63,425 bases of DNA from the NCBI GenBank assembly GCA_014800815.1, contig JAAVFI010000037.1, positions 1-63,425 of the forward strand. Direction: 5' to 3'. Below the pieces are notes generated by a model. The model saw nothing but the letters and a program-made list of their open reading frames with translations. It searched no databases and was not told where the DNA came from. Positions 4,448 through 33,474 of this stretch are shown here, in pieces. This DNA comes from Bacteroidales bacterium (lineage in GTDB: Bacteria; Bacteroidota; Bacteroidia; Bacteroidales; Muribaculaceae). The first letter of the stretch is position 1. The number at the start of each line of letters is the position of its first letter. The translations under genes and the position numbers were made by a program.

Positions 4448-5707
4448 GATAGTCGAGAGGCAATCTTTGTATCGGCAGAGCGCCTCGAGGAAATAATAGT
4501 CGGCGTAGTTGAGAGGAGTATCAATCTCGGAGCCGTGAGGGAGAGATCCGGTAGAGTGCATGAGCACGAAGCCGTTGTTTGTACCCTTTTCGGCGAGGTA
4601 ACGGTCGGAAGCGAGCGACTTGAGAATCTTTTCGGCATAGGCGAAATATTTCTTGCCGTTTTTCACTTGCTTGCTCAAATCGATGAGACCGGAGGCGATT
4701 ACGGCAGCTGCAGAAGCATCGCGGGGTGTAGACGCGTCTTTTACGGCATCGAAGTCCCAGAGGGGAACGAGGTCGTCGGTCTGATTTTTCGAGATAATCA
4801 TCTCTGCTACAGCCACAGCGTGGTCAAGGAACTCCTTGCGACCTGTATTGCGGTAGGTCTCTGTGTAGCCGTAGAGCGCCCAACCCTGGCCGCGGGCCCA
4901 GGATGAATCGTCGTTCTTGCCCTGGAAAGTCTGGCGGCACTCGACAGTGCCGTCGGCATTGTAGCTGACTACGTGGAAGCAGCTCTTGTCGGCGCGGAAA
5001 TGGTACTTGAGGGTGGTGAGTGCATGGGTTGTGGCAACGTCGGCATAACGCTTGTCGCCGGTGAGTTCGGTTGCTTTGTAGAGCAAGTCGAGATTCATCA
5101 TATTGTCGATGATAACGGGGAAATTCCACGGACCGAAATCCCATGAACGTATACATCCGATAGCGGGGTCGAAGCGTCCGGCAAGATTCGAGGCGGTCTC
5201 TACGAGGACGCTCTTTATAGAATCGGAGGGGGCGAGACGGAGGGCGTTGCCATAGCTGCATCCGGCCATAAAACCGAGGTCGTGGGTATCTGTCATCTTG
5301 GATACGGGCAGGAGCATATTGGTGAAGCGCTTGGCCTGCTCCTGAAGTTCGGTCTCGTCGGTGAGCTGATAGGCGAGCCAGAGGCTACCGGGGAAGAAAC
5401 CGCTCGTCCAGTCGGAATAGTTGCAGAAGTGTGTAGTGCGGTATTCGCTCGGCGAAGGATGAATAAGTAGTTCTACCTCAGGCTTGAAATCAGCAGGTGC
5501 ACACTCCATCTGAGTACTGAGCTGCTCGAGTGAGTAATCGCTCTTGACCGACCTCGGGAATTGACCATTGACTGAAATTGAGTGAGCGGTAGCTATCAGT
5601 TGAGTTTTGGCATGGTCTACGGCATTGTCGAACCATGCTTCGGGCTGCTTTGCATTGAGTGAAACAACGCAAAGTGATGCTATGGCCAGTGAGAGATATG
5701 TTTTCAT
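4445..5707 (-). CDS. GH88 unsaturated glucuronyl hydrolase, secreted
   Basis: A 420-residue GH88 enzyme. By family it removes the 4,5-unsaturated uronic acid from lyase-generated glycosaminoglycan oligosaccharides by hydrating the double bond. It has a type I signal peptide (about residues 1-19) and so acts in the periplasm. The two aspartates corresponding to the catalytic pair of the Bacillus enzyme are present: Asp143 in MTDTHDLGF and Asp201 in VIIDNMMNLDLLY. The (alpha/alpha)6-barrel motif SSWARGQGWALYG is intact. It is the last gene of the SusCD operon, 23 bases behind susD. It supplies the free unsaturated uronate consumed by the KduI-KduD-KdgK-Eda set upstream. Confidence 0.93.
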   Translation of the reverse strand: MKTYLSLAIASLCVVSLNAKQPEAWFDNAVDHAKTQLIATAHSISVNGQFPRSVKSDYSLEQLSTQMECAPADFKPEVELLIHPSPSEYRTTHFCNYSDWTSGFFPGSLWLAYQLTDETELQEQAKRFTNMLLPVSKMTDTHDLGFMAGCSYGNALRLAPSDSIKSVLVETASNLAGRFDPAIGCIRSWDFGPWNFPVIIDNMMNLDLLYKATELTGDKRYADVATTHALTTLKYHFRADKSCFHVVSYNADGTVECRQTFQGKNDDSSWARGQGWALYGYTETYRNTGRKEFLDHAVAVAEMIISKNQTDDLVPLWDFDAVKDASTPRDASAAAVIASGLIDLSKQVKNGKKYFAYAEKILKSLASDRYLAEKGTNNGFVLMHSTGSLPHGSEIDTPLNYADYYFLEALCRYKDCLSTI

Positions 5708-7428: not shown

Positions 7429-10400
7429 TTAGAAGGTGATGTTAAGACCGAAGAGGAAGGAGCGGCTGAGGGGGTATGCTCCGAAATCTATGCCGGGAGT
7501 GAGACCGCTGCGCATAGTAGAGACTTCAGGGTCGAAACCGGTGTACTTGGTTAGGCAGGCGAGATTGTTGCCGGTGAGGTACAGGCGGAGTCGCTTCACA
7601 CCGAGGCGTTTGAGTCGGCGTTCGGGGAATGTGTAGCCGATGGTGATGTTGGAGAGCTTGAGATAAGAAGCGTCTTCCACGCCCCAGGAGTGGATGTAGT
7701 TGTCGCCCTGCTCCATGTCGTAGTAGGCGGCTACGGTCTTGCCGGCATTGAGTGCGGCGAGTTCGTTGGGGTCGGTAACAATATCACCGGCGGCGTTGAC
7801 TGTCATCCAGCGGTTTGCGCTCGACGAAACGGCGAGAGCGTTGGTATTCTGCACGCCTGATTTTGCGTTGATGAGCTTGGTGGCATTGAGCACGTCGTTG
7901 CCGATGCTGAAAGTCAGGAATACGGAGAGGTCGAAGTTGCGATAGAAGAAGTTGTTGTTCAGGCCGCCGAAGAGCTTGGGAGCAGCGTTGCCGATCACGG
8001 TCTTGTCGTCTTCATCTATTATGCCGTTGTTGTCGCGGTCGCGGAATTTCCACATACCGGGGCGTACGGTAGCTGCATTCCCCTGATAGGGTACACCTTC
8101 TTTGAGGGTGTAGGTGTGAGTGCGCTCGTTGTAGTTGAAGTCGCTCACCTGATAGAGACCTTCGGTTTCGAAGCCGTAGAACTGGCCGATAGGGGCGCCG
8201 ACTTCGAGGAGGTGGGTACTCTGGTTGAAGCCGAAGCGTCCTTCGTAGAGCTGACGGTCTTCGCCGGTGAGGCGTACCACTGTATTTTTGTTGTGGGAGA
8301 GGTTGAGTGTTGTACGCCAGGAGAAATTGCGGTTGCTGATGTTTACGGTGTTAATGGCAAGGTCTATGCCGACGTTGCGGGTTGCACCGGCGTTGAGGAG
8401 CATTGTGGTGTAGCCCGACGAAAGGGGTACCTGAGCGTTGAGGAGCAGGTCGTTACTTTCGTTGATATAGAACTCGGGGGCCACGGTGATGCGCTGGTTG
8501 AGCATGCCGAAGTCGACACCGACATTGAAGGTCTTGTTGGCCTCCCATTTCAGCTTGGGGTTGGGGATGTTGTTGGCAACATAGCCGGGCTGTACGGTTC
8601 CGCCCATAGCTGCGAGAATGGAGGTCATGAGCGCTAGCGAGTTATAGGAGCCGATGCGGTTGTTGCCTGCGAGGCCGTAGCCTGCGCGGAGCTTGAGGTC
8701 GGAGAGCCATGTAACATCGGTGAGCCACTTTTCTTCTTTAATACGCCAGGCGGCGGATACGGCGGGGAAATAACCCCACTTTGTATTCTTGCCGAACTTG
8801 CTTGAGCCGTCGGCGCGGAAGGTAGCCGAAATCAGGTAGCGGCTGCTGAAGTCGTAGTTGGCACGGGCGAAGAAGGAGAGGAGTTTGTCATCGTCGTTGT
8901 AGCTCGAGGTGATAGCCGAGGGGGTACCGAGGCCCATGTCGTTCAGGCCGAAATCATCGTTGGGGAGGTTGATAACGGAAGCGTTGAGAGTCTTGGTAGT
9001 TCTTGCGATGTACTCCTGCCCAACCTGGACGGTGATGCGGTTTTTCTTGTTGATGCGGCGGTCATAGCTGATGACATTCGAAATTGAGAATGTACCGTAC
9101 TGACTGTTGCTTACGCTGCCGTGAACACCTTCACGCTTACCCATAATCGAATTCGAGCCGAAGAAGAGCTCGCGATCGTAGGTCTGGTGACGCATGCCGG
9201 TATTGTTTCTGAAGGTCCAGCCTTTGCCGAGGTTGAAACTAAGGTTGACGCTCGCCGAGAATGTGCGCTGAATACGGTCGTCGCGTTCGCTGCGGGCTGC
9301 CAAGACGGGGTTTACAAGCTGGTCGTTGTTTTCGTCGAGAATGGGATCGTAGCCTGCGAGGAGGTCGTCGTCGCTGCCACGGAAGCCGATAATGGGTCGG
9401 TACTGGAGAATCTGTACGAGCTTATTGAAGCGGGCGTCGACGTTGGAGCCACCCTCGTTGGTACCGTTGCCGGCAACGCCTGCGCCGGTGGTCTTCACGT
9501 AGTCGTAATTGACACGTCCGCCGATAGTGAGTCGCTTGGAGATGCGAGTGCGGATATTACCGGCGATGCTGTGCTTGTAGCTGCCTGAATTGACCATGGC
9601 GCCTTCGTCGTTGAAGTAGCCGTAGCTCATGTAGTAATCCACGCCTTCGACACCGCCGCTTACGGTAGCGCGATAGCTCTGAGTGGTGGTGGTGCGTCCC
9701 ATAGTCTCGTCGAGCCAGTCGATGCCGGGGCGATTGGCGTAGTTCTCGGCGATGTCGGCGAAACCGCCGTAGCGGTTTTGCCAGCCAAGTACTGCGGCAC
9801 CGGCATCGGAAGCCCAGCCGATAGTACGCTCGTAGTCGGCAAGCGCAAACTCCTCGCTCGAAAGTACGTCGAGCTTGTTGGCGAGCTTTCGTACACCGAA
9901 GTATGCGTCGAAGTTTACGGCGGCTTTGCCATTTTTATTCGAACCGCTTTTTGTGGTGATTACGACTACACCATTGGCACCGCGGGAGCCATAAATAGCT
10001 GTGGCGGAAGCATCTTTGAGTACGTCGATAGTCTCGATATCACCGGGGTTGAGGTTGCTCATGCCGTCTTCGGAGGGCATGCCGTCGATTACGTAGAGAG
10101 GTTCGTTGCTCTGGGTAATCGAGATACCGCCGCGGACGCGCACCGAGGGAGTTGCGCCGGGCTGGCCGTCGCTCATCACAATCTGGACACCCGATACACG
10201 GCCTGCGAGAGCCTGAGTGGCGTCGCCGCCGGGAGTCTTGAGCATGTCTTCGCCTTTGACAGAGGATACGGAACCTGTGAGGTCTTTTCTTTTTACTGTG
10301 GCGTAGCCGATAGCAACGACTTCTTCGAGGGCTACCGAAGAGGGCTCCAGGGTGACGCTGATTGCGTTGCGGCCCTTGAGTTCTACGGTCTTATCGGCCA

Positions 10401-10638
10401 TGCCGACGTATGTAAAGACGAGTGCACCCTTCTTGAGATTGGGCACGTCGATAGAGAATTTTCCGTCGATGTCGGTCGCCACGCCGGTTTTGCCGTCTTT
10501 GAGTCGGACAGAGCCACCGATCACGGGCTCGCCTTCGTTGTCGAGGACTGTACCGGTAACTATTTCGGCAAATGCATACTGTCCGCCGGCTATCATTGCG
10601 GCGACAAATGCACTGCGGAGATATTGCTGTATATTCAT
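7429..10638 (-). CDS. susC: SusC/RagA-family TonB-dependent transporter
   Basis: A 1069-residue outer-membrane transporter. Order: signal peptide (about 1-24); carboxypeptidase-D-like regulatory domain (about 25-105, VTGTVLDNEGEPVIGGSVRL); plug domain with the SusC hallmark sequences LEEVVAIGYATVKRKDLTGS, VRVRGGISI and LKDASATAIYGSRGANGVVV; then the 22-strand barrel ending in SFLFGLNITF. It imports oligosaccharides into the periplasm using ExbBD-TonB energy, with SusD as its lid. No N-terminal STN domain is present, so sigma/anti-sigma signalling is unlikely and control should come from the HTCS at 29.4 kb. It lies 21 bases behind the lyase gene. Confidence 0.97.
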   Translation of the reverse strand: MNIQQYLRSAFVAAMIAGGQYAFAEIVTGTVLDNEGEPVIGGSVRLKDGKTGVATDIDGKFSIDVPNLKKGALVFTYVGMADKTVELKGRNAISVTLEPSSVALEEVVAIGYATVKRKDLTGSVSSVKGEDMLKTPGGDATQALAGRVSGVQIVMSDGQPGATPSVRVRGGISITQSNEPLYVIDGMPSEDGMSNLNPGDIETIDVLKDASATAIYGSRGANGVVVITTKSGSNKNGKAAVNFDAYFGVRKLANKLDVLSSEEFALADYERTIGWASDAGAAVLGWQNRYGGFADIAENYANRPGIDWLDETMGRTTTTQSYRATVSGGVEGVDYYMSYGYFNDEGAMVNSGSYKHSIAGNIRTRISKRLTIGGRVNYDYVKTTGAGVAGNGTNEGGSNVDARFNKLVQILQYRPIIGFRGSDDDLLAGYDPILDENNDQLVNPVLAARSERDDRIQRTFSASVNLSFNLGKGWTFRNNTGMRHQTYDRELFFGSNSIMGKREGVHGSVSNSQYGTFSISNVISYDRRINKKNRITVQVGQEYIARTTKTLNASVINLPNDDFGLNDMGLGTPSAITSSYNDDDKLLSFFARANYDFSSRYLISATFRADGSSKFGKNTKWGYFPAVSAAWRIKEEKWLTDVTWLSDLKLRAGYGLAGNNRIGSYNSLALMTSILAAMGGTVQPGYVANNIPNPKLKWEANKTFNVGVDFGMLNQRITVAPEFYINESNDLLLNAQVPLSSGYTTMLLNAGATRNVGIDLAINTVNISNRNFSWRTTLNLSHNKNTVVRLTGEDRQLYEGRFGFNQSTHLLEVGAPIGQFYGFETEGLYQVSDFNYNERTHTYTLKEGVPYQGNAATVRPGMWKFRDRDNNGIIDEDDKTVIGNAAPKLFGGLNNNFFYRNFDLSVFLTFSIGNDVLNATKLINAKSGVQNTNALAVSSSANRWMTVNAAGDIVTDPNELAALNAGKTVAAYYDMEQGDNYIHSWGVEDASYLKLSNITIGYTFPERRLKRLGVKRLRLYLTGNNLACLTKYTGFDPEVSTMRSGLTPGIDFGAYPLSRSFLFGLNITF

Positions 10639-10659: not shown

Positions 10660-13170
10660 TTAAAATACTGAGCGGCTGTTGGCCGGAGTGATGTCTGTGT
10701 ATTCGTCGGCCTTAACCGTGCCTCCGATTTTGTCTACTATGATGGTTGAATTGGTGTATTTGCGGGTGTAGGTGGCGCCTCCGATCGTAAAGGCGTCGCT
10801 TCCGTAGCTGAGTCCTGTGGCAGTGCGCTTGTTCTCAATGGTGAGGGCGGGAGCTTTGGAGGGGTCGAGCTCGGCGGAGATTGTCCAGTTGCCTATAAGG
10901 ATGTTGTCGCCGTTGAGCTGAGTTTTGGCAAAGTCGTCGTTTACATCAGCGGTGAGTATCACGGCGAGGATTCTTACTTTGTCCTTGCCTGCGACGGTGG
11001 CCGAGAAGTGCCACTGGTCGGGATACTTAGGGCCCTGAACGGCGGGCGGAACGGCGAAGTCGCTTGTCTGAGAAAGGTTGAGCTGACTGTCGGAGAATAA
11101 GAGCAGTTTTGACTTTGTGCTGCCTGATTCTACCGTTGCCGAACCGTCGGCATCAATCGCAAAGGTAGTATCGGAGTGCAGGAGCCAATCCCACTTTGCC
11201 GCCTCATAGGCTTCGAGTTCGTCGTAGATAACTACGATATTGCCCTGAAGCATTGCCACGTGCCTTCTGTAGCGGGTGAGCGGTGTCTCGCCGAAACCGT
11301 TTTCGGGAGTCTGGGTGATGCCTGCTGCTGCAAAAGAAGCGAGCCACATGGGGTCGTCGGTCACGCCGCAGTAGGCGTGTGATGCGTCGCCGAGAGCGTA
11401 GCTGATTGTCGAACCACCTCCGGCTCTTACCATGGCTCCGTAGGCCTTGGTTGTATAGGGCTGGCCGATGCCGTTGACGAGGATTGTATTGTGAGCGCGG
11501 CTGTGGCGGTACGACATCAGATTGTGAGCGTCGTCGAAGTTCTGGTAGTAGCCCGAGCTGTGGAATACGGGCTTGCCTCCATAGTAAAGATTGAAAGCAT
11601 TCTGCGACGCCGTGGTATGGCTGCCCGAGCCGAAGCCTGAAGAGCGGAATGCGAGGGCAAGGTCTTCGGAGGTGTTTCCGATGTTGCTGTGCATGGTCAC
11701 TTCGCCTGCATCGGGATATATCGACATGTTTGAGACTGTCGAGGGTACTTCGCAGGGATAGTTGCTGTCGAGACGGGTCATGCGGTAGAGACGGAGCTCG
11801 TAGTCGTTGCGGAGGAGCGAAAGATTCTGAGTGGCATACCAGCCGGCGAACTCATCGCCTGTCTCGGCCGCGAGGAAATCTGCGAATGCAGGATACTGGC
11901 GGTTGGTGGTGGTGAAGCTCTCGCTCTGGTCGCCGAAGCCTACACCCATGGAGTTGGTCGGGCATGAGTAGCAGAGGCTTTTGCCTGCCGCACGATACCA
12001 GGGGTGAGAGAGGAAATCGAAGCGGGTAACGTAGCTCAGGAGTTTGGGCATGTAGGCGAGAGTGAGGATGTTGGCACTCATATACCCTACTCCATTGTGC
12101 CAGAGGCCGTCGCGCGAAAATCCTGTAGCGGGGGCGCGTGTGCACCAGAGTTCATAGTAATACTCGAGGTAAGGGAGTACCTGCTGAGAGTAAGCGGGAT
12201 TGTCGAAGAGAGTGAAGGCTGTCTGGAACATCACCCTCAGGTTCTGCTGCCAGAAGTGGTTGTCAAAGATATGATTTTCCTGGTAGCCGATGTTTGGTTC
12301 GGTAAAGCGTACGAGGGCTCTCATCATCTGTTCTTCGGCAGCTGAAAGTGTCTGTGCCGGGAGACGCGAATAGAGAAGGTCGTAAATCGCTGTGATTGAA
12401 TATGTAATAGCCGAAGTGGCAAAATTTGCATTGAAAAGCTGACCGTCGGAGGCGGGGTTTGCAAGCATTGCCTCGAGTATCGAAATGAGTTTTGCGGCAT
12501 ATTTATCTGTGCCTGTGAGTATATAGGCATCAGAGAGCCACATCACATTGTTCATCAGTGTACCGTAGTCACTGTATAGCTTGTTGATGTTTTCTGTATC
12601 TAACGACAATGCACCGTCGGCTCTTGACATCATCATCCTGTACTCGGGATGTGAAGGTGCATTGGCGCGGTAAACGTCCTCGGCAACGTCTATGAAACAA
12701 TTGAGTCGGGGATGACGGCGCGGGGAGTTGGTTAAAAATACTTCGAACGACGGGGTTGCGAACTGCTCCTCTTCTCCTGTGATACAGAAGCTGTTGACGT
12801 CGCTCCAGTCCTCGGATTCATTGCGGAAACGCCAGAACCATGTTCCGTTGTCGAGGATTCTGTGAGGGCTGAACATACACCACTGCTGCCAACCGGAGGT
12901 AATAGTGGCGGAGGATTGAAAAGTGGAGTCGGGAGAGAGCTGGAATTGAATCCTTTCACCGGTCTTCATTGACTGAGGAACGATGAGGGGTGCGGGATTG
13001 ACAAAAATAGTGCTCTCAGCCAGCGGATATGGCCTTGTTCGGATTTTTTCGTGATACTCCGAGACCTTGGAAACCTCCTGTCCCGGCTGAGTCTGCGGGA
13101 TATCGAAAATTTCCTCTGTCGAACAGGACACACAAGCGATTGTCAATAATATAGCCGAGAGTTTTTTCAT
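10660..13170 (-). CDS. DUF4962/heparinase II-III family lyase, lipoprotein
   Basis: An 836-residue polysaccharide lyase with an N-terminal DUF4962 domain (about 40-400) and a C-terminal heparinase II/III beta-sandwich. This is the architecture of PL15- and PL21-type enzymes that cleave uronic-acid glycosaminoglycans by beta-elimination. Likely catalytic positions are the His in ENHIFDNHFWQQNLR and the Tyr in WHNGVGYM; the family's second-domain His region GSGSHTTASQNAF is also present. The chosen start is 13170 (MKKLSAILLTIACVSC), which gives a textbook lipobox at Cys16; the frame extends to 13212 without a better signal. It is a probable surface enzyme because it is a lipoprotein next to SusCD. 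It is a diverged paralogue of the lyase at 16.5-19.2 kb. Confidence 0.85.
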   Translation of the reverse strand: MKKLSAILLTIACVSCSTEEIFDIPQTQPGQEVSKVSEYHEKIRTRPYPLAESTIFVNPAPLIVPQSMKTGERIQFQLSPDSTFQSSATITSGWQQWCMFSPHRILDNGTWFWRFRNESEDWSDVNSFCITGEEEQFATPSFEVFLTNSPRRHPRLNCFIDVAEDVYRANAPSHPEYRMMMSRADGALSLDTENINKLYSDYGTLMNNVMWLSDAYILTGTDKYAAKLISILEAMLANPASDGQLFNANFATSAITYSITAIYDLLYSRLPAQTLSAAEEQMMRALVRFTEPNIGYQENHIFDNHFWQQNLRVMFQTAFTLFDNPAYSQQVLPYLEYYYELWCTRAPATGFSRDGLWHNGVGYMSANILTLAYMPKLLSYVTRFDFLSHPWYRAAGKSLCYSCPTNSMGVGFGDQSESFTTTNRQYPAFADFLAAETGDEFAGWYATQNLSLLRNDYELRLYRMTRLDSNYPCEVPSTVSNMSIYPDAGEVTMHSNIGNTSEDLALAFRSSGFGSGSHTTASQNAFNLYYGGKPVFHSSGYYQNFDDAHNLMSYRHSRAHNTILVNGIGQPYTTKAYGAMVRAGGGSTISYALGDASHAYCGVTDDPMWLASFAAAGITQTPENGFGETPLTRYRRHVAMLQGNIVVIYDELEAYEAAKWDWLLHSDTTFAIDADGSATVESGSTKSKLLLFSDSQLNLSQTSDFAVPPAVQGPKYPDQWHFSATVAGKDKVRILAVILTADVNDDFAKTQLNGDNILIGNWTISAELDPSKAPALTIENKRTATGLSYGSDAFTIGGATYTRKYTNSTIIVDKIGGTVKADEYTDITPANSRSVF

Positions 13171-13244
13171 GATTGGTTGTTTAACGAGCCGGGAAGCGGA
13201 GAAGCGATTCACCGCTTCCCGGTAATTATATGACTAATGGTATG

Positions 13245-16543: not shown

Positions 16544-19159
16544 TTAAATTTCAAGTTCAGGTACAACGTCTTCCAGAGTTGTCACAAATCCGTTCTCGGT
16601 CACCACTGTGGCATCGCCCTTGTAGGATATGTTCACATCATCTTTAGTGGACCTTACGTAGAACGAGGGTGCTCCTTCGGCCTTGAGGTTGACGCTGATG
16701 AGCCAGCCTCCGGCTTTGATGCGGCCGTCCTCGAGAATCTCGGGATCGGGAGAGGGACGTTTGGTGGGATGAGTGTTGATAATGGTCGCGAAGCGATATA
16801 CTTTCGAGCCTTCGGAGATGCCGGTGAAGTGGTAGTGATTGGGGTACTTATTGAATACACCGTTATCGTCGGCACGCAGCCAGTTGACAGGTTCGACTTT
16901 AAACTTGTCGGTGGTCTCGCAGGAGAGTTTCCCGGTAGAGAATATATATGCGTCGGAAGCAGCACCCTTGTTGGTCGCCGTCACATGTACCCAGTGGGGA
17001 TTGCTCTCGTCGAGTTCGAGAGGATTGGCCACCGCATGGAGTGTATAGTGCCAGGGGATAATGGAGTCGGCCTCAAGTTCATCGTAGATGAAGATGTAAC
17101 CGGTATTGCCGAGCTGAACAAGGTGGCGACGGAATTTCTTGAGAGGAACATCGTCCCAGCCGTTTTCGCGGGTGTACTCCACGTCGCTGTCTTTGCCACG
17201 CTGAAGCCAGAGGGGAGAGATGACCTTGCCGTAGGCGTTGCTTGCATCGCCGAGCACGTAGTTGATTTTGTCGCTGTTGTAGTAGCGGGGAATCCAGCCG
17301 TAGCCCTCGACACCGAGACGCTGACCCATGCCGTCGGGCAAAATGGTGTTGTGGCCGAACGAACCGCGGTGGCAGATCATTGAGTGAACGTCGGTGAACT
17401 CGATGTGATGACCCGCGCTATAGAAAAGCGGAGCGCCGCCGCAAATAGTGTTGAAAGCATTCTGGTTGGCGAGAGCGTGCGAGGTGGAGCCGTAGGGGCT
17501 GCTGCGGAAACTTACCCAGTAGTTACCGCCGGGACGCTCCCACGAAGTCATGAAAGAAGCAAGTCCTGTTTCGGGGAATACATATCCGGGCATGAGGTCG
17601 GTGAGGCCGGGGCCTTCGGGAAGTGCCTTATCGGTCTGAAGTCGGAACCATGCAAGGTCGCCGGGCTTTGAGAGGAGAGCCTTCTTGAGATACTCGGGCT
17701 CTTCTTTGAGGGTACGGTTTACGAAGTCGGCGGCATAGCTGTTGTTGCACAGACGGGCGAGAGCATCGAGATAACCGATACGGATAGAGTTGGGGCGGCC
17801 TACTCTGAGGTGAGCAGAACCGTTGCCGGCGCTCTTTGAGAACGGAGGTTCGTTATAGATAGTGTACATGATGTTATTCTCGTACCAGGGGTCGGAGAAA
17901 AAATCATAACCCGTAATCTGCGAATAGAAGTAGGGAACTTCCACAAGTGTGCGAGTATTTACGGTGAAGTACATATCGCCGTTGTGCCAGCCACCGTCGC
18001 GGTTAAGACCGGGGAAGCGTGCAAGCCATACATTGTAGCAGTAGTCGCTCCAGAGGTCGCTCTCGGGCAACTCGCCGTATGTGGCAAGTGCCGCCATGGT
18101 GGTGATGCGGAGTGTCATCTGCCAGATGTGATTTTCCGCTATATGATTTTCAAGATAATTGTTGAAGCGATTGTACATGTTAGTACCCTTGTCCTTGACC
18201 GTCTGAAGCAATACTTCTTTCTGCTCGGGAGTGAGGAAATCGTAGAAGGTGTCGTAGGCCATTGAGGCGAGCGACAGGAGTGTGCCGTCGTTGAAGTCGC
18301 CGCGAACGTTTTTATTCTTGTCCCAGCCTGTCATTACGAGTACACGGTTGAGAGCCTCATTGGCATAGCGGCGGTCCTTTGTAAGAATATACGCACGTAT
18401 GAGAGCCTCGCAGTTCGACTCCTCGGCATCGATTATTCGGCGGCTCTCGCTGGTAAGATAAGAGTTGCGCTGCATGTCGTTGGTGAGGTTGGCGAGATTG
18501 TCGGTGCGGATATCCTCAATACGGCGCATGGGCGACTGCAGAACTTTTTCGGCTGCTTCAATATACCACTGACGTTCGGGCTTGCCTTTGGACTGAGCAA
18601 TGAAGTTGTCCCAGTTGTCGGCCTGCACGAGGATGCGGGGGTGCGACGCAGGAAGTTTTGCTATGAACTCACTGTAGCTCGGGGGAGTGAAACGGTGACC
18701 GTTGTCGGCAACAGTAACAGTATATACAGGACTCCATGTATCGGCGCCCTGCTCATCGACAAAACTGTACTGCCAGTAATATGTACCGGGCGCAAGGGCT
18801 TTGTCGGGGTTGTGGAAGGGCCAGATAGTTTCGACTGTCACAACATCCTTGTTGAGATTTTTGTCGGTCGAATAGCGGAGTTTATATTTGAGCTTGCTCT
18901 TGTCAACTTTCTTTTCGGTGTGCTCGAAACCATCGAGAGGAGCACCTGTACCGCGGGCCCACACGGGAAGGGGCCACTGGAACGAAACAGCGCGGTCGTC
19001 GACTACAGAGCCGTCGGCGGGGAAGGGAGTGTCGCGGCTTTCGTGCATGAGACATACATCATCGAGACGGATGTTAGCTCCGATCTGATGCTGTTTTGCC
19101 GACGCTGAAAAGATAGCCGTCAGACCCAAGGCCAATATGAAAATGTGATTCGTTTTCAT
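16544..19159 (-). CDS. DUF4962/heparinase II-III family lyase, secreted
   Basis: An 871-residue lyase with a type I signal peptide (IFSASAKQ, about 1-22), DUF4962 (about 60-450) and a heparinase II/III domain (about 530-760). The length and layout match Bacteroides PL15-type exolyases acting on heparin and heparan sulfate. Candidate catalytic residues are the His of LENHIAENHIWQMTLR and the Tyr of GGWHNGDMYFTVNT; the second-domain GSTSHALANQNAF is present. It lacks the lipobox of its paralogue at 10.7 kb, so it is probably periplasmic, which would give the operon one surface and one periplasmic lyase. It is the first gene of the distal operon, behind the promoter at 19190-19197. Confidence 0.87.
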   Translation of the reverse strand: MKTNHIFILALGLTAIFSASAKQHQIGANIRLDDVCLMHESRDTPFPADGSVVDDRAVSFQWPLPVWARGTGAPLDGFEHTEKKVDKSKLKYKLRYSTDKNLNKDVVTVETIWPFHNPDKALAPGTYYWQYSFVDEQGADTWSPVYTVTVADNGHRFTPPSYSEFIAKLPASHPRILVQADNWDNFIAQSKGKPERQWYIEAAEKVLQSPMRRIEDIRTDNLANLTNDMQRNSYLTSESRRIIDAEESNCEALIRAYILTKDRRYANEALNRVLVMTGWDKNKNVRGDFNDGTLLSLASMAYDTFYDFLTPEQKEVLLQTVKDKGTNMYNRFNNYLENHIAENHIWQMTLRITTMAALATYGELPESDLWSDYCYNVWLARFPGLNRDGGWHNGDMYFTVNTRTLVEVPYFYSQITGYDFFSDPWYENNIMYTIYNEPPFSKSAGNGSAHLRVGRPNSIRIGYLDALARLCNNSYAADFVNRTLKEEPEYLKKALLSKPGDLAWFRLQTDKALPEGPGLTDLMPGYVFPETGLASFMTSWERPGGNYWVSFRSSPYGSTSHALANQNAFNTICGGAPLFYSAGHHIEFTDVHSMICHRGSFGHNTILPDGMGQRLGVEGYGWIPRYYNSDKINYVLGDASNAYGKVISPLWLQRGKDSDVEYTRENGWDDVPLKKFRRHLVQLGNTGYIFIYDELEADSIIPWHYTLHAVANPLELDESNPHWVHVTATNKGAASDAYIFSTGKLSCETTDKFKVEPVNWLRADDNGVFNKYPNHYHFTGISEGSKVYRFATIINTHPTKRPSPDPEILEDGRIKAGGWLISVNLKAEGAPSFYVRSTKDDVNISYKGDATVVTENGFVTTLEDVVPELEI

Positions 19160-19301: not shown

Positions 19302-19517
19302 TTACATTTCAAGGGTCGGAAGACGGTCTTCAAGCCTAAAATCGGCACCATTTTCGGTGATTTTCCCGGCTTGACCGGGAACGCTTATACCACCCATTTT
19401 TCCGAACACTATCCTACCCTCTTCCACCGAATGAATACGCGTAGAAGCAACAACGGCAGTCCCCGTCAAAGCGAAGACTGTCGTTGTCAGTATCAGATTT
19501 TTAAACCTGTCGATCAT
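19302..19517 (-). CDS. small protein of unknown function, coupled to kduI
   Basis: A 71-residue ORF whose ATG overlaps the kduI stop codon (ATGA), so it would be translated by coupling. The N-terminus looks like a signal peptide or single membrane segment ([20 protein letters not shown]), followed by about 45 polar residues ending [10 protein letters not shown]. No family is recognised. It could be a genuine small secreted protein or the remnant of a longer gene. It is the last reading frame of the uronate operon, about 140 bases before the next promoter. Confidence 0.45.
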
Positions 19518-20434
19518 TTCATCTCGGTGTAGGTCACTTTGTCCATATCACCGTAGTCGAGGTTTTCGCCTCCCATACCCCATATGAACATGTAGTTGGA
19601 GGTGCCGGCGGCGGCGTGGATAGACCATTCGGGAGCCATTACGGCCTGCTCGTTGTGGAGCCAGATGAGGCGGTTTTCCTGCGGTTCGCCCATGAGGTGG
19701 CAGATTGCGTTGCCCTCGGGTACGTTGAAGTAGAAGTAGCACTCTACGCGGCGGTCGTGAGTGTGGGCGGGCATGGTGTTCCATACCGAGCCGGGCATCA
19801 GTTCTGTCAGACCCATCTGCAGCTGGCAGGGGCCCTCTTCGAGTACGTTGTTGGTGATGAGCTGGTTGATGTAGCGGTCGTTGCTCTCCTCGAGGCTGCC
19901 GGCGTGCATGCGGTTGGCCTTGATACTGCCTTTGCGGCCGTCGATAGTGATGAGCTGGGTCTTGTACTCTTTGTGAGCGGGGGTGGAGTTGATATAGAAC
20001 TTGGCGGGAGTGGCCAAGTCTTTGCTGCGGAAGGTGACGGATTTCTTGCCGCGACCTACGTAGAGGGCGTCGCGGAAGCCGAGTTCGTAGTCTTTGCCGT
20101 CGACGGTGACGATTCCGGCACCGCCGATGTTTATCACGCCGAGTTCGCGGCGCCGGAGGAAGTAGTCGGCCTTGAGAGGATCGATTGTCTCGAGCTCTAC
20201 AGTCTGTCCTACAGGGATTACGCCGCCGTAGATTATGCGGTCGTACATCGAATAGGTGAGGTTGATTACGTTCTCCTCGAGCACCTTAGGCATCATGAAG
20301 TGCGAGCGGAGCTGCTCGGTGTCGTAGTTCTTTACGTCGTCGGGGTGGCAGGCGCGAAGTATGGTATAATTTGTCTTGGCGGCTCCCATGAGGCTGACTG
20401 CCGAAAGGAGGACGCTGAATATTAGCTTTTTCAT
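19514..20434 (-). CDS. kduI: 5-dehydro-4-deoxy-D-glucuronate isomerase (KduI) with a signal peptide
   Basis: A 306-residue KduI, the cupin isomerase that converts DKI (5-keto-4-deoxyuronate) to DKII (2,5-diketo-3-deoxygluconate). The four metal ligands known in E. coli KduI align here as His224 and His226 ([15 protein letters not shown]), Glu231 and His273 (APEWSIHAA). The [14 protein letters not shown] core is intact. The protein is about 28 residues longer than the usual 278 because of an N-terminal extension, [20 protein letters not shown], which has all the features of a cleavable Sec signal. KduI is normally cytosolic, so this copy would act in the periplasm. Its start overlaps the aldolase stop by four bases. 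The extension, not the catalytic call, is the surprising part. Confidence 0.93.
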
Positions 20435-21087
20435 TTTTGAAGATTGGATATTAGGTTTAATGCTGATTTACATTTCTCTGTAATCTCGGCGGGTGTGGCA
20501 CCCTTGGGGAAGAGTTTGGAGCCCATTCCCACGCAGTACACGCCGGCTTTGAACCATGCGGCAAGGTTTTCTTCGGTAGGTTCTACGCCGCCCGTAACCA
20601 TGAGTTTGCTCCAGGGCATGGGCGCGAGGAGGCCCTTGACGAATTTCGGGCCGAGAACATCGCCGGGAAATACTTTGCAAAGGTCACAACCGGCTTCCTG
20701 GGCGAAACCGACCTCGGAGATGCTGCCGCAACCGGGGGTATAGGGTATGAGGCGACGGTTGCAGACTTTGGCAACATCGGGGTTGAACAGCGGGCCGACG
20801 ACGAAGCAGGCGCCGAGCTGTATGTAGAGGGCGGCTGTGGGGGCGTCGACAACTGAACCGACTCCGAGTGCCATTGACGGGCAGGCCTCGTCGGCGTACT
20901 TGACGAGTTCTGCAAATATCTCGTGGGCGAAATCGCCGCGGTTGGTAAATTCGAATGCCCTTACGCCGCCTTCATAGCAAGCACGGAGTACTTCTTTGGC
21001 CGTGGCAAGGTCTTTATTATAGTACACGGGCACCATGGGCGCCTCTTTTATCTTGGCCATAACGGCCTGTTTGTCAAAGCGTGCCAT
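20431..21087 (-). CDS. eda: KDPG aldolase (Eda-type)
   Basis: A 218-residue class I aldolase that splits 2-keto-3-deoxy-6-phosphogluconate into pyruvate and glyceraldehyde-3-phosphate, ending the uronate pathway. The Schiff-base lysine is Lys138 in [11 protein letters not shown], and the active-site Glu46 and Arg50 lie in FEFTNRGD. The phosphate-binding region is [16 protein letters not shown]. There is no signal peptide, so it is cytosolic. It sits between kdgK (3-base gap) and kduI (4-base overlap), in the order expected for a catabolic operon. Confidence 0.95.
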
Positions 21088-21090
21088 AGT

Positions 21091-22113
21091 TTATCTCTGT
21101 ACTCGTCCGTTGGCGTTACCTCCTGCGAGAGCCTTGACTTCGGCTTCGCTTACGAGGTTGAAGTCGCCGTTGATTGTGTGTTTGAGAGCTGAAGCTGCTA
21201 CCGCAAATTCAAGTGCTTCGCCCTGTGTGGGCATGGTGAGAAGTCCGTGGATGAGGCCACCCGAGAAAGAGTCGCCGCCACCTACGCGGTCGATTATGGG
21301 GTCGATGTCGTAGCGTTTGCTCTGATAGAACTCTTTGCCGTCGTAAATCATTGCTTTCCAGCCGTTATGAGTGGCGGAATATGACTCGCGGAGTGTCGAC
21401 ACAACATACTTGAAGCCGAATTCTTTCATCATGGCCGCGAATATGCCCTTGTAGCCTTCGGCATCGGTATTGCCGCCTTCGACATCGGCATCAGGTTTGA
21501 ATCCGAGGCAGAGTTCGGCGTCTTCTTCGTTGCCGATGCACACGTCCACGTACTTCATCAGGGGGCGCATGATGCTCTGAGCTTTCTCGCTGGTCCACAG
21601 TTTCTTGCGGAAGTTGAGGTCTACGCTCACAGTCACGCCGTGACGCTTTGCGGCCTCGCAGGCAAGACGGGTGAGTTCGGCTGCCTTGTCAGAGATTGCG
21701 GGGGTGATGCCGCTCCAGTGGAACCAGTCGGCACCCTCCATGATTGCGTCGAAATCGAAGTCGGCGGGGTCGGCCTCGGCGATTGCACTGCCGGCACGGT
21801 CGTAGATCACCTTCGAGGGACGCATGGAGGCGCCTGTCTCGCAGTAGTAGATGCCTACACGGTTGCCGCCGCGTGCAATGTGGCGTGTATCAACGCCGTA
21901 GCGGCGCAGGGCGTTCACCGCTGCCTGACCTATTTCATGGGTGGGAAGCTTGGATACGAATACGGCATCGTGGCCATAGTTGGCACAGCTTACGGCGACG
22001 TTGGCCTCACCGCCGCCCCATATTACATCGAAATTATCGACCTGCACAAAGCGTTTGCAGCCTGCAGGCGAAAGACGGAGCATGATTTCTCCGAGTGTTA
22101 CTATCTTGCTCAT
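21091..22113 (-). CDS. kdgK: 2-keto-3-deoxygluconate kinase, PfkB family
   Basis: A 340-residue ribokinase/PfkB-family kinase that phosphorylates KDG to KDPG. The N-terminal GEIMLRLSPAG and the WGGGEANVAVSCANYG motif match KdgK. The C-terminal PfkB signature is DRVGGGDSFSGGLIHG, with the catalytic Asp in GGGD. Between them SVDLNFRKKLW is typical of KDG kinases rather than fructokinases. It is cytosolic and translationally close to both neighbours (2-3 base gaps). Confidence 0.94.
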   Translation of the reverse strand: MSKIVTLGEIMLRLSPAGCKRFVQVDNFDVIWGGGEANVAVSCANYGHDAVFVSKLPTHEIGQAAVNALRRYGVDTRHIARGGNRVGIYYCETGASMRPSKVIYDRAGSAIAEADPADFDFDAIMEGADWFHWSGITPAISDKAAELTRLACEAAKRHGVTVSVDLNFRKKLWTSEKAQSIMRPLMKYVDVCIGNEEDAELCLGFKPDADVEGGNTDAEGYKGIFAAMMKEFGFKYVVSTLRESYSATHNGWKAMIYDGKEFYQSKRYDIDPIIDRVGGGDSFSGGLIHGLLTMPTQGEALEFAVAASALKHTINGDFNLVSEAEVKALAGGNANGRVQR

Positions 22114-22115
22114 AA

Positions 22116-23537
22116 TTACTCTGTTGTCTGTATTTTATCTGAGTCAGCCGCAATCATTGCATTGCGGTTGCGGATGATTAAAACTCTGTTCCACCACATA
22201 AGTGCCATTGTACCGACCACGAGCAGGCCTGCGCCTATCCATTTCAGGCTTATGGTGCAATGGTAGATAATCCACGCGAAAGGACTTGAGGCGAAGTCGA
22301 GGCTGCCGCCCTCGAAGCCTGCGGGAATTGCTACGGCGGCATCGCCTGTCACGGCGTAGACGTCCTGAGCAGCGAGGGTGAAGGCGGGTGCGAGGTTGGT
22401 GACCATATAGAGGCCGGCGGTGAGCACGACCAGACCTACTATAAAGGTTTTAAGGACGTTACCTTTTGTAAACGGAAGTACGAGGGGGAAGACGTAGAAC
22501 ATTCCGGCAAGCGAGGCCAGCGGAAGAAACTGATTTCCGGGCAGTACCACAGCGAGAAAAAGGGTGACGGGGATAAGCAGTAGCGAAACGACAAGGGTCG
22601 TCGGGTGACCGATGACAAGCGCGGGGCTCATGCCGATGTTGAGACCGTCGGCTCCCTTGAAGCGGCGTGCTATGAGGCTGCGAGTGGCGTCGCTGATAGG
22701 TTTGAGGCCCTCGATGAAGAGGACGGTTACGCGGGGGATGAGTTCCATTACCGCACCCATTTTGATGCCGAGACCGAGGATGTAGGGAATTGAATCGACA
22801 GTCTGACTCCACGATGTGCAGGTGAGGCAACCGATGACGATGCCGACTATCACGCCGAGGAAGAGCGGTTCGCCGAGGAGTCCGAATTTCTTCTTAAGTC
22901 CTTCGGCATCAATCTCCATACGGTCCATGAAGGGGATTTTGTCGAGACCCTTGTTGATGAGCCACGCCACGGGAGCGAAGCCTGCGCAGAAGGGCTGAGG
23001 GATAGAAATTCCGTCCATATCCTTGTAGAATCGCTGGAATTTCAGGGCTGTCATATCGGCGAGGATAAGCGTGATGATGTAGCACACGACAGCGCCGAAG
23101 AATCCCCACGCCAGAGAGTCGCTCGCGAAGTAGATTATGGCTCCGATGAAGGCGAAATGCCAGTAATTCCAGAGGTCAATGTTCACGGTTCGCGTCGTCT
23201 TGGTGACGAGCATGAGGATGTTTACCACCAGGCACACAGGGATGATAAACGCGCCCACAGCAGTGTTGTACGCCACCGAGGCGGCCGCGGGCCACCCCAT
23301 ATCGAACACCTTGAGCTGCAGGCCGTAGATGTCTACCACAGCGTTCAACGCGGGCCCGAGAGCCGAAGTGAGCAGACCCGTGACTATCGAGAGTCCGACG
23401 AAGCCTACTCCGACTTTCAGGCCGGCCTTGAGTGCGTCGCCGAACTTGATGCCTATGCACACGCCGAGTATCGTGAAGATAACGGGCATCATCACGGCTG
23501 CACCGAGGCCTATGATGTATTTGAATACTTCTTCCAT
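22116..23537 (-). CDS. GatC-type PTS IIC-like permease without PTS partners
   Basis: A 473-residue membrane protein of the galactitol-type PTS IIC family with about a dozen hydrophobic segments. Landmarks include VFDMGWPAAASVAYNT, the NIDLWNYWHFAFIGA loop, and IPRVTVLFIEGLKPISDATR. The start at 23537 is chosen because the frame's upstream 72 codons are non-protein-like and lie inside the DUF4861 gene. There is a one-base gap to that gene. No EI, HPr, EIIA or EIIB is encoded in the window. Flanked by kdgK and the lyase genes, it probably imports unsaturated uronate, DKI or DKII, possibly by ion symport rather than phosphorylation. That role is inference. Confidence 0.88.
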   Translation of the reverse strand: MEEVFKYIIGLGAAVMMPVIFTILGVCIGIKFGDALKAGLKVGVGFVGLSIVTGLLTSALGPALNAVVDIYGLQLKVFDMGWPAAASVAYNTAVGAFIIPVCLVVNILMLVTKTTRTVNIDLWNYWHFAFIGAIIYFASDSLAWGFFGAVVCYIITLILADMTALKFQRFYKDMDGISIPQPFCAGFAPVAWLINKGLDKIPFMDRMEIDAEGLKKKFGLLGEPLFLGVIVGIVIGCLTCTSWSQTVDSIPYILGLGIKMGAVMELIPRVTVLFIEGLKPISDATRSLIARRFKGADGLNIGMSPALVIGHPTTLVVSLLLIPVTLFLAVVLPGNQFLPLASLAGMFYVFPLVLPFTKGNVLKTFIVGLVVLTAGLYMVTNLAPAFTLAAQDVYAVTGDAAVAIPAGFEGGSLDFASSPFAWIIYHCTISLKWIGAGLLVVGTMALMWWNRVLIIRNRNAMIAADSDKIQTTE

Positions 23538-23538
23538 A

Positions 23539-24660
23539 TTATTTAATTGTGACTGATAAGGGATTCTGAAGGCGAGTGTGGAAATCGGAGAGATATTTTT
23601 TCCAGGTCTGCCAGTCGGGCATATCGCCCTTGCTCCAACCCGAGCCCCAGTAATAGACATAGCACTCGCCGGGAGTATAGGATTTCTTGGCCAGAATGTG
23701 GCCGAGAGCATCGCCCTGAGGGGTGTCGAAAGGTATGTTAAGCATCGAATCAACCTCGGGAGTGACCACGCCGACGTATATCACGCCGTTGCCGTTCTCC
23801 GCATTGTCGGTAAGATCGGCATAGGCCATGTATCCTTCTTCGGGCGAGAGTACATAGCCGTCGGGGTTCTGGCGGTGAATCACTATGCCCGGGGCAATTG
23901 TAGGATAATTTACCTTGCCGAAACAAACCTCGGTACGGTTGAGAAATTCGCCTGCGTCGAGGGTGATACGGCGTGTCTCGCCGCTGTCGTAGCTCAGCAT
24001 TACGGTGAATCTCAGGGGGCCGTTGTCGAGGATATCATAGCTCGAGAAGCACCACGGATATACAATGTTTCCAAGCGAGTCAATCAAGGCCGCAGTACCG
24101 CCGCCGAGCGTCGGTCCGACGGTGTAGACGTCCATGCCCTCGCCGTAGTCGTTATGGAAATTCTTTACCTCGGCGAAAGCATCGGTGTATCTTTGGGCTA
24201 CAACCGGGCGAGCAACCGACTTGGTCCATATGTCATAGCCGAAAGCCCTTTCGCCGCTCTGCTGCAAAGCCGGGCCATAGGCACGATAGGCGCTCCGGTC
24301 GTTCTCCCAGGTGAAGTCATCCTTGCGGCGGGGATAGAAAGCTCCTGTGGCAATCGTGTCGACAGCCGACGGCTCACCCTCCACGAGAGTGTAGACGGTA
24401 CTACTGTTGGCGGCAACTGTGGCAGGGAATATCAGCCGGCCGTCGTAGGTCACTTGATAAGGTACTTCGCGGTCTTTGTCGTCGATGATGCGAAACTGAC
24501 TGTGATTCATCAGAGAATCGACAGCAGCGGCATCAATCTCGATTATTTCTTCATTGCGATCGACGCCGAGACTGTTTACCACCGTCACCCTATGCTGACG
24601 GCTGCAGCCCACAGACAGAAGTCCGGCAAAAACTGCGGTGATAATGATACTATGTTTCAT
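23539..24660 (-). CDS. DUF4861 lipoprotein
   Basis: A 373-residue lipoprotein (FAGLLSVGC, Cys19) with a single DUF4861 domain. The opening HRVTVVNSLGVDRNEEIIEI and the conserved FHNDYGEGMDVYTVGPTLGG and YYWGSGWSKGD segments mark the family. DUF4861 members recur in Bacteroidetes loci for pectin, alginate and glycosaminoglycans, but I know of no assigned activity. The conserved His, Asp and Trp residues suggest an enzyme acting on uronate-containing products. It is translationally coupled to heparinase III upstream (4-base overlap), which points to a step soon after depolymerisation. Confidence 0.85.
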   Translation of the reverse strand: MKHSIIITAVFAGLLSVGCSRQHRVTVVNSLGVDRNEEIIEIDAAAVDSLMNHSQFRIIDDKDREVPYQVTYDGRLIFPATVAANSSTVYTLVEGEPSAVDTIATGAFYPRRKDDFTWENDRSAYRAYGPALQQSGERAFGYDIWTKSVARPVVAQRYTDAFAEVKNFHNDYGEGMDVYTVGPTLGGGTAALIDSLGNIVYPWCFSSYDILDNGPLRFTVMLSYDSGETRRITLDAGEFLNRTEVCFGKVNYPTIAPGIVIHRQNPDGYVLSPEEGYMAYADLTDNAENGNGVIYVGVVTPEVDSMLNIPFDTPQGDALGHILAKKSYTPGECYVYYWGSGWSKGDMPDWQTWKKYLSDFHTRLQNPLSVTIK

Positions 24661-26636
24661 AATCTGTAGCCAAGTTTATATTTCTTGCCGTCGACCGTTA
24701 CTTCGAGCGACGAGCCGTCGACCGAAAACTTACCTTTGTAATCCGCCGAAATCTTGTGGTTGAGCGGATTCTCCGCATCCACGGGACAGATTACTGTGAT
24801 AAATCGTGCGGGCTCACCCTTCTTCTTGCCGGTGCTGAACGCATAGGCCGGACGGCGGTTTTTCTGGCGGTATTCAAATGAGGTCCACCCTTCCTCTGCT
24901 GTCATCCTATCGGCTCCGAAAACCCTGACAGTGACATTGTTGTTGTCGGCAAAGGCGGTCGTAACCGATTTGTTGACCGAGTTTTCAAGAGGATCACAGG
25001 GGAGCAGCTGATAATGAAGCGCGACATCGCCTTCGGCGTCACCGTAGGCCTCGTCGACAATGACATAGAACTTCTTGTCGACAAAGAAAACGGCGCGGCG
25101 GTGGGTCAGCCCCTTATAACCGGGGGTCTCGACCACGACCATATCCACCTCGGGGTTCGTTTCCCATTTCAGCAGATTGGACTTGCGCTTTTCGAGGGTC
25201 TTGTTGTCGAGTGTCAGAGTGTTGTGGACCGAGGTCTGACGGAACCAGTCGCGCTGCTTCAGCACCTCCTCGTCGCCTCCGTAGATGAAACTGCCCGAGT
25301 CGGGGAAGAAGTTACGGCCTTTAATCCACAGCTCGAAAGTCCCGTTGTCAAACTGATTGTGCCACTCACCCTCGGGACCCGCCTTGAGAATCATGACGGT
25401 CGCCGCCGGGCCCCAGCCGTTACGCAAAATGTAGAAACCTCCGTTCTCAAAAGCGCGTGACGTGTAGTCGGGTACATTTCCCTCTTTCCCCTCCGATGCG
25501 AAATATTTCAGCGCGGCGTCGTCGGGGCTGATTTTCAACCAGGATTTATAGCGAGGCAACGAGCCTGACTTGCCGACCTTCTTTCCGTCGCTGAACATGG
25601 GCATACTGTAGTCGGGGAAGGTGATATTGTAGTTGAATTCAATCATCTTTCGCATTACATCGATATATTCCGGCGGAAATTCATCGGTGTAACCGTTGAT
25701 GTTGAGCATTGCGAGAGCTTTGCCGAAAATGTCGATAGTGGCGGGATGATAGCGCGGATCGAGTTCGTAATGAACGCCGTCGGGATAAACCTGCTTCACG
25801 ATTTCGCGGGTGAGGATATCCACCCCAGCTTTGCGCCAGTCGGCAGCCTTCCTGAATTCCGGGAAATATGTTCCGGCGAAAATTATTCGCTGCGCTTCAA
25901 AAAGCAGATGATTCCCCTCATCGGAGTAATGACCATCAACAAATTCGGCATGACGGTGATAGTTGTCAAGGAATTCAATCAGGAAATCCGGGGTGAAGTG
26001 CTCCGAGGGGAGAAAGAGGGAGAACTGCTCGATCTGGTGTTCCAGACGGTCGCCGACTTCGAGAGGACGCCAGGCAAAGTAGACATTGTCGGCGTTCTCC
26101 ATATCCGTGTCCTTTATTCCCTCAAACTCAGTGAGTGGATTTTTTCTGACCCAGTCTCGATATTGGGCAACCCATTCACCGGCATACTTTTCGTCGCCGG
26201 TCACGCGGTAGGCTTTGCCCATCGACACCCACCATTTGGTGCGATGAAGTTGCCAGCGCAATTCGTTGTCCTTCACCGGCCAGTATTGCCAGTCGATGTC
26301 GTCGCCGTAGAAATACGATGGCTGATAGCCATCGTGGACATAGAACTTATGCTCCATTCCATCGTCGGCCCATTTTCGCTCGCGGTCGGTAAGTTGCGGA
26401 TTGTCAGGATCGACACCGATGGATTTCACACCTGTTCTATGGCGATAGTAATCGAGCAGAGCCACGGTTGCAAGCGAGTCGTTGCCGGCATTGTAGTACC
26501 CGGCGACTTTATCAAGACCGGGACGTGTGAGGTCGAGTAGCCCGATTACCGAGCGTGCATCTGCTCCTTTCAGCATAGACACAGGCAGAAATGCCGCAAG
26601 GAATAAAATGGTTCTGTTGAGGTTAAAAATTTTCAC
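24657..26636 (-). CDS. hepC: heparin/heparan-sulfate lyase, heparinase III type (PL12)
   Basis: A 659-residue PL12 enzyme, the same length as Pedobacter heparinase III. It cleaves low-sulfated heparan sulfate by beta-elimination. The catalytic residues I recall for that enzyme (Asn240, Tyr294, His424) fall here with a constant offset of two: Asn242 in EGNHLLFEAQR, Tyr296 in LDPRYHPAT and His426 in GEWHNQFDNG. The N-terminal alpha/alpha toroid is residues about 27-370 and the C-terminal beta-sandwich about 390-659. A type I signal peptide (about 1-26, no lipobox) places it in the periplasm. It is second in the operon, 8 bases after kduD. The constant offset makes this the firmest evidence for the PUL's substrate. 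Confidence 0.93.
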   Translation of the reverse strand: MKIFNLNRTILFLAAFLPVSMLKGADARSVIGLLDLTRPGLDKVAGYYNAGNDSLATVALLDYYRHRTGVKSIGVDPDNPQLTDRERKWADDGMEHKFYVHDGYQPSYFYGDDIDWQYWPVKDNELRWQLHRTKWWVSMGKAYRVTGDEKYAGEWVAQYRDWVRKNPLTEFEGIKDTDMENADNVYFAWRPLEVGDRLEHQIEQFSLFLPSEHFTPDFLIEFLDNYHRHAEFVDGHYSDEGNHLLFEAQRIIFAGTYFPEFRKAADWRKAGVDILTREIVKQVYPDGVHYELDPRYHPATIDIFGKALAMLNINGYTDEFPPEYIDVMRKMIEFNYNITFPDYSMPMFSDGKKVGKSGSLPRYKSWLKISPDDAALKYFASEGKEGNVPDYTSRAFENGGFYILRNGWGPAATVMILKAGPEGEWHNQFDNGTFELWIKGRNFFPDSGSFIYGGDEEVLKQRDWFRQTSVHNTLTLDNKTLEKRKSNLLKWETNPEVDMVVVETPGYKGLTHRRAVFFVDKKFYVIVDEAYGDAEGDVALHYQLLPCDPLENSVNKSVTTAFADNNNVTVRVFGADRMTAEEGWTSFEYRQKNRRPAYAFSTGKKKGEPARFITVICPVDAENPLNHKISADYKGKFSVDGSSLEVTVDGKKYKLGYRL

Positions 26637-26644
26637 CGGAGTAT

Positions 26645-27448
26645 TTATTGAGGTTGTTTGCCAATATATGCAAGGATGCCTCCGTCGACATACAGCACAT
26701 GACCATTCACAAAGTTAGATGCGTCTGATGCGAGGAATACCGCAGGGCCTTCGAGGTCTTCGGGAGTGCCCCAGCGTCCGGCAGGAGTTTTGGAAATGAT
26801 GAACTGGTCGAAGGGATGACGTGAGCCGTCGGGCTGCAGTTCGCGCAAGGGGGCAGTTTGCTCGGTGGCAATATAGCCCGGACCTATGCCGTTGCACTGG
26901 ATATTGTGTTCGCCGAACTCAGAGCAAATATTGCGTGTGAGCATCTTCAAACCGCCCTTGGCTGCAGCGTATGCGCTTACGGTTTCGCGGCCGAGTTCGC
27001 TCATCATGGAGCAGATATTGATGATTTTGCCGTGGCCCTTCTTAATCATGCCGGGGATGACGGCCTTAGCGCAGATATAGGGTGCCACGAGGTCCACGTC
27101 GATTACACGGCGGAAGTCTTCAACGGCCATTTCTTCCATAGGTATGCGCTTGATGATGCCGGCGTTGTTGACGAGGATGTCGATAGTGCCGACGGTCTTT
27201 TCGATGTCGGCCACCATAGCCTTGACGGCTTCTTCGTCGGTTACATCGCAGAGATAGCCCTTGGCGTCGATGCCGAGTTCTTTGTAGGCAGCGAGTCCGC
27301 GGTCTACGGTTTCCTGACGCGAGCAATTGAAAACTATGCGGGCACCGGCCTGAGCGAGTGCCTTAGCTATTGCAAGACCGATGCCGTAAGCGGCTCCGGT
27401 AACAAGGGCTGTCTTGCCCTCGAGCGAAAACATATTCATCTTTTTCAT
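26645..27448 (-). CDS. kduD: 2-deoxy-D-gluconate 3-dehydrogenase type SDR (KduD)
   Basis: A 267-residue short-chain dehydrogenase that reduces DKII to KDG with NADH. It shows the TGAAYGIG cofactor motif, the NNAG motif (ILVNNAGIIKR, like E. coli KduD), the catalytic Ser near SMMSELG, and Tyr/Lys in VSAYAAAKGGL. No signal peptide is present, so it is cytosolic. An alternative ATG at 27439 (MNMFSLEG) is equally plausible. It is the first gene of the uronate operon, directly behind the promoter near 27513-27520. Confidence 0.93.
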   Translation of the reverse strand: MKKMNMFSLEGKTALVTGAAYGIGLAIAKALAQAGARIVFNCSRQETVDRGLAAYKELGIDAKGYLCDVTDEEAVKAMVADIEKTVGTIDILVNNAGIIKRIPMEEMAVEDFRRVIDVDLVAPYICAKAVIPGMIKKGHGKIINICSMMSELGRETVSAYAAAKGGLKMLTRNICSEFGEHNIQCNGIGPGYIATEQTAPLRELQPDGSRHPFDQFIISKTPAGRWGTPEDLEGPAVFLASDASNFVNGHVLYVDGGILAYIGKQPQ

Positions 27449-33473: not shown

Positions 33474-33474
33474 C

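Follow-up and report, generated by a model that had tools for sequence, protein, structure and literature searches.

KduI is customarily described as a cytosolic enzyme without a leader. In the window, by which we mean the whole stretch of 63,425 nucleotides that was analysed (contig JAAVFI010000037.1 of a Bacteroidales bacterium, family Muribaculaceae), the gene for KduI appears to encode a leader peptide, and the locus raises the question of whether this isomerase works in the periplasm and, if so, how its product would cross the inner membrane. The features of the locus are collected in Table 1. The identity of the enzyme was confirmed as originally predicted: the open reading frame scores above the cut-off of the NF002091 equivalog model, and His224, His226, Glu231, and His273, which we take to be the metal ligands, are all present and line up with the HTHERRME and WSIH segments of E. 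coli KduI (PDB 1xru). A genome search found this single KduI. By family membership, it would catalyse the conversion of DKI (5-keto-4-deoxyuronate) to DKII.

Table 1. Features of the uronate locus in the window, in order of position.
Feature	Position	Strand	Evidence
GH88 unsaturated uronyl hydrolase with predicted leader	4445..5707	-	Pfam Glyco_hydro_88 38.3 bits
SusD-like protein	5731..7419	-	Pfam SusD_RagB
SusC-like outer-membrane transporter	7429..10638	-	Pfam Plug and TonB_dep_Rec_b-barrel
Heparinase II/III-like protein with leader	10660..13212	-	Pfam DUF4962 and Hepar_II_III_C
Heparinase II/III-like protein with leader	16544..19159	-	Pfam DUF4962 679.6 bits and Hepar_II_III_C
KduI, predicted to be exported, 306 aa	19514..20434	-	NCBIfam NF002091 392.9 bits (cut-off 250; residues 27-306); Pfam KduI 87 bits; ATG start
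Predicted Sec/SPase I-type leader of KduI, residues 1-19, predicted cleavage after Ala19	20378..20434	-	Conserved in relatives; coding signature; start-stop overlap
KDPG aldolase, no leader by rule	20431..21087	-	Pfam Aldolase 95.8 bits; NCBIfam NF005499 above cut-off
KDG kinase-like PfkB kinase, taken as cytosolic	21091..22113	-	Pfam PfkB 105.6 bits
EIIC-GAT (GatC-like) permease, proposed DKII importer	22116..23537	-	Pfam EIIC-GAT 272 bits (cut-off 24.2)
DUF4861 lipoprotein-like protein	23539..24660	-	Pfam DUF4861 267.9 bits; NCBIfam BT_3233_fam 359.5 bits
Heparin-sulfate lyase HepC with leader	24657..26636	-	NCBIfam NF045573 728.6 bits (cut-off 700)
SDR reductase, gluconate 5-dehydrogenase type (KduD/DhuD role), taken as cytosolic	26645..27448	-	NCBIfam NF005488 501.2 bits (cut-off 369)

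Leader and start site of the window KduI

The N-terminal extension, read in the original prediction as a cleavable signal, has the character of a Sec/SPase I-type leader. Its position coincides with that of the start codon in leaderless KduIs, and many leaderless Bacteroidales KduIs begin with MKTNYE or similar residues at the point where the window leader ends, so that the predicted cleavage would leave the usual N-terminus. Inspection by eye showed a leader in each of the 59 full-length KduI genes of the window's family and in each of the 80 named relatives, among them Duncaniella muris, Heminiphilus faecis, and Muribaculum caecicola. A strict hydrophobicity rule was passed by 57/59 of the own-family genes and a looser leader rule by 98/98 distinct genes (own-family and named sets, 32 + 66 after merging duplicates). 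An alignment of homologues had been proposed with the prediction, and it revealed the extension to be conserved across the leader KduIs: in 118 leaders of the same length (26 residues before the anchor), M1 was found in 100%, K2 in 99%, A19 in 99%, and Q20 in 92%. Asp or Glu occurred within residues 1-18 of a single leader (1/118), and the core was mostly nonpolar. The home-made leader rule is crude, and at its threshold of 1.7 the window kinase (2.01) and reductase (1.79) also pass. The argument therefore rests on conservation among KduIs, with the leaderless KduIs as controls.

Forty close KduI pairs, which are not independent of one another, were compared by codon position. Differences within the leader fell on positions 1/2/3 as 113/32/297, and those within the mature part as 261/143/3032. 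The third-position bias of the leader differences argues that the leader is translated. In addition, the ATG of KduI overlaps the stop codon of the upstream aldolase by 4 nt. A start-site artefact was rejected on the grounds of this overlap, the coding-type evolution, and the conserved leader residues, and a true start downstream near residue 20, which had been named as one of the findings that would overturn the prediction, was not borne out. Taken together, the sequence data strongly support the predicted export of KduI.

Distribution of leader KduIs and the GatC-like permease

In the row DhuD-HepC-DUF4861-EIIC-kinase-aldolase-KduI, successive genes are separated by 8, -4, 1, 2, 3, and -4 nt. 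The SDR reductase scores below the NCBIfam KduD cut-offs, and no single NCBIfam equivalog exceeded its cut-off for the PfkB kinase. The third gene upstream of KduI in this row encodes a permease of the EIIC-GAT family, the only one found in a search of the genome. A mechanical call of its reading frame (22116-23753) begins at a TTG and overlaps DUF4861; the ATG at 23537 (MEEVFK) was chosen, yielding a protein of 473 aa, the usual length. The only solved relative found was the galactitol IIC 9u82 (4.2e-83), and the score for the galactitol IIC model TIGR00827 was below the cut-off (390.2 vs. 542.2 bits). The search for a PTS partner covered one family, PTS_IIB (PF02302), and gave 0 matches at E 0.001 in the window's genome, with control genomes positive in 6/14 cases.

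Two side observations concern the neighbourhood. In four genomes of one genus (g15), a single open frame of 883-915 aa spans both DUF4861 and EIIC-GAT and looks like a fusion (L190:2115-4763, L215:1406-4114, L219:5296-8040, and L295:2264-4924), which hints that DUF4861 may work on the periplasmic side of the permease. On the plus strand of the window, positions 29447-34836 hold a long hybrid two-component regulator-like protein (by eye) and a sulfatase with a leader, as is expected beside a sulfated-glycan locus.

The genomes sampled comprised 198 from the window's family, 295 from the order, 395 from the phylum, and 191 from a second family (f59), for which the DNA of 103/121 KduI rows was covered. 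After merging duplicates, 289 full-length KduI genes were judged; 165 passed the ATG leader rule and 124 failed. Those over-cut-off KduI genes of the order and phylum samples whose DNA was left out have frames too short for a leader, save broken or partial ones, and such genes (e.g. G208, G456, and G871) were outside the judgement, as were 15 sub-cut-off phylum matches. There was one clear false pass among the 165 (ATG starts only), L313, which in the comparison of two-copy genomes below was judged leaderless by its canonical start, and the true leader KduIs thus number 164. In 120/124 of the leaderless genes, an ATG stands 2-9 residues ahead of the anchor. Seven of the loci (L161, L167, L181, L188, L203, L205, and L214) look Muribaculaceae-like, and the titles of their records (Paenibacillus, Clostridium, Alistipes, Clostridiales, Lachnospiraceae, Lachnoclostridium, and Staphylococcus) are probably wrong.

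EIIC-GAT occurred in the sampled Bacteroidota almost only together with exported-type KduI. All 149 KduI genes with a same-strand EIIC nearby had a leader, and no EIIC lay beside any of the 124 leaderless genes in the upstream DNA covered, which was shorter than 2.5 kb for 70/124. In the window's family, 58 genomes had both genes, two had KduI only (G121, and G181 with a fragment), one had EIIC only (G163), and 137 had neither, in a tally that counts KduI fragments as present and leaves out two sub-threshold EIIC matches. The eight of 295 order genomes with EIIC-GAT were the same eight that had a leader KduI, and the three of 395 phylum genomes with an above-cut-off EIIC-GAT were likewise the leader genomes. 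In f59, none of the 24 tested genomes that yielded only a leaderless KduI had EIIC-GAT, and all four leader genomes tested had it, two of them at another locus (G1057 and G882).

Genomes with two KduI copies, 12 of the 109 KduI-bearing genomes in f59, allowed the comparison to be made within a single background. In ten of them the copy beside EIIC has a leader and the other, beside a DhuD-like reductase, has none. In G912 both copies are of the exported type and each has EIIC beside it, and in G885 one copy is beside EIIC and the other is a near-duplicate. The same split was seen in two f78 genomes, where only the leader copy is beside EIIC. Exceptions were few: the leader KduIs L151, L294, and L318 had no EIIC within at least 2.5 kb upstream, G1057 (the genome of L318) having one elsewhere, and no EIIC-GAT was found in the 85% complete assembly of G121, a genome of the window's family with a leader KduI. 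A scan of ten of the 30 membrane proteins listed for leaderless loci gave six matches to MFS_1 (four of these also to Sugar_tr) and matches to other families for the rest, so that none of them is an obvious common alternative importer.

In a careful tree of the mature part with 63 representatives, the true leader KduIs formed one clade (support 99/96), and this clade extends beyond the window's own family to other families of Bacteroidales. Two rows departed from their labels. L337 (= L267) is leaderless by rule yet falls inside the leader clade, and it is a second copy whose mature part is identical to that of the leader copy in the same genome. L279 is labelled as a leader row and falls outside the clade; this was a false call from a TTG start far upstream. 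Near-duplicates and long or poorly filled rows (L227, L138, L136, and L137; in the wider tree the same names where present) were dropped before the trees were built. Repeated gains of the leader are not claimed: a quick tree had set f78 apart, but the careful trees joined all leader rows, the first of them with support of 96/61. Since the leader KduIs form one clade, their association with the permease counts as a single link preserved over a long time, and its many instances are not independent. The best explanation of these distributions is that exported KduI and EIIC-GAT make up one inherited module of the Muribaculaceae and several other Bacteroidales families, and that the leaderless KduIs belong to an arrangement free of the permease.

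Proposed uronate pathway and its alternatives

We hypothesize, with good though not full confidence, that the window holds a heparan-type utilisation locus in which the isomerase step has moved to the periplasm and the GatC-like permease imports DKII unphosphorylated. The lyases and an exported GH88 would release 4,5-unsaturated uronate in the periplasm, where it would open to DKI. The exported KduI would convert DKI, an aldehyde, to DKII, a ketone, in the same compartment, and the stand-alone GatC-like EIIC would move DKII over the inner membrane without PTS phosphorylation. Reductase, KDG kinase, and KDPG aldolase would complete the pathway in the cytosol. It had been predicted that GH88 is exported too and that isomerisation precedes import. 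The window GH88 does have a predicted leader and is the only above-cut-off GH88 in the genome, a second match being below the cut-off. Together with the conserved KduI leader, the lack of a second KduI in the genome, and the co-distributed permease, this supports a periplasmic isomerisation. The leader, the gene order, the co-distribution, and the single clade can be read from the sequences themselves; what we infer is that KduI is in fact exported, that it is catalytically active, and that DKII is the cargo. On a slightly more cautious footing, we consider it likely that this is a distinct Bacteroidales uronate route, made up of an exported KduI clade and a PTS-independent GatC-like permease as the dedicated importer of DKII.

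Exported KduI might instead act mainly on saturated hexuronates (glucuronate to fructuronate and galacturonate to tagaturonate), with the permease importing those ketouronates. A link between E. coli KduI and the conversion of galacturonate and glucuronate is reported in PMC3578941, and the row in G163 (L293:6647-11947) has the reductase, EIIC-GAT, kinase, and aldolase without KduI and adjoins a putative mannonate dehydratase, judged as such by eye. With such a row, the permease may take other ketouronates. The lyases and GH88 of the window, however, yield unsaturated uronate, and the adjacent kinase and aldolase suit a path from DKI through DKII to KDG, and we regard the main use of saturated hexuronates as unlikely. 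It is somewhat less likely still that KduI is exported and the permease serves for a different sugar from the same diet, the pairing being historical. A single origin of the leader clade, a cargo that is itself deduced, and the separate locus of the permease in G1057 and G882 would all fit such a history, but the pairing has been kept in 149 genes over several families, and it sorts the two KduI copies within ten genomes. The leader could also go unused, through a start at Met16, for which the window has an in-frame ATG at codon 16, or through an uncleaved extension that keeps KduI in the cytosol. This is very improbable, because position 16 is most often Ser across the 118 leaders, and the near-invariant residues, the third-position bias, and the start-stop overlap all speak for the full leader.

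If periplasmic isomerisation and import of DKII hold true, a textbook step would have a different place in the many gut bacteria of this group, which live on glycosaminoglycans and similar glycans, and an inner-membrane importer for unsaturated uronates in these bacteria could be named. Export of the isomerase would presumably also clear a reactive aldehyde ahead of uptake.

Comparison with known systems

The cytosolic KduIs (the E. coli type of 1xru and 7e4s, the leaderless Bacteroidales KduIs, and 9kcz) have the family and the named residues in common with the window KduI. They differ in lacking a leader, their matches beginning close to the first residue, and the leaderless Bacteroidales genes are without EIIC-GAT in the DNA covered. 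The closest solved relative is another KduI, PDB 9kd0 (E 4e-154), which by eye is of the exported type. Its matched part starts at chain residue 3, the equivalent of the mature end, and the leader may thus be known to those who deposited the structure; the literature searched gave no paper that names 9kd0. The permease shares the EIIC-GAT family with GatC, the galactitol PTS EIIC (9u82), from which it differs in its score below the TIGR00827 cut-off, in the lack of a PTS_IIB match in its genome, and in its place among uronate genes.

Lyases, GH88, and SusCD occur in the Bacteroides glycosaminoglycan pathway as they do in the window. In passages of PMC6994673 and PMC9067506, GH88 of B. thetaiotaomicron is described as periplasmic, with DKI released there. 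The predicted departure from the textbook order is supported, with two amendments: periplasmic release of DKI was already on record for Bacteroides, and the prediction had overlooked the permease, a probable partner of KduI. With GH88 already reported as periplasmic, the unusual parts are the exported isomerase and its permease. DKI is said in a passage of PMC6994673 to feed directly into cytoplasmic metabolism, and PMC9067506, in the part concerned, gives BT4653 as a predicted inner-membrane sugar transporter with the cargo unstated. The window differs from this pathway in the leader of its KduI.

For Bacteroidota, a hybrid kduI-dhuD cluster is known from a pan-genomic study of KduI/DhuI/KduD/DhuD clusters that covered 3,550 strains (PMC12838403); in its main text the word 'signal' is absent and 'periplasm' occurs once, for Dickeya. 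This cluster, of KduI with a DhuD-like reductase, is common among the leaderless Bacteroidales KduIs. In the window, KduI and its gluconate 5-dehydrogenase type reductase stand in one gene row, with five genes between them, and the exported type differs from the hybrid cluster in having EIIC-GAT beside KduI. A search of the open literature gave no account of KduI export or of this permease in uronate use. Seen against these systems, the exported isomerase and its permease are a variant of a known enzyme and a known pathway, not a new kind of system.
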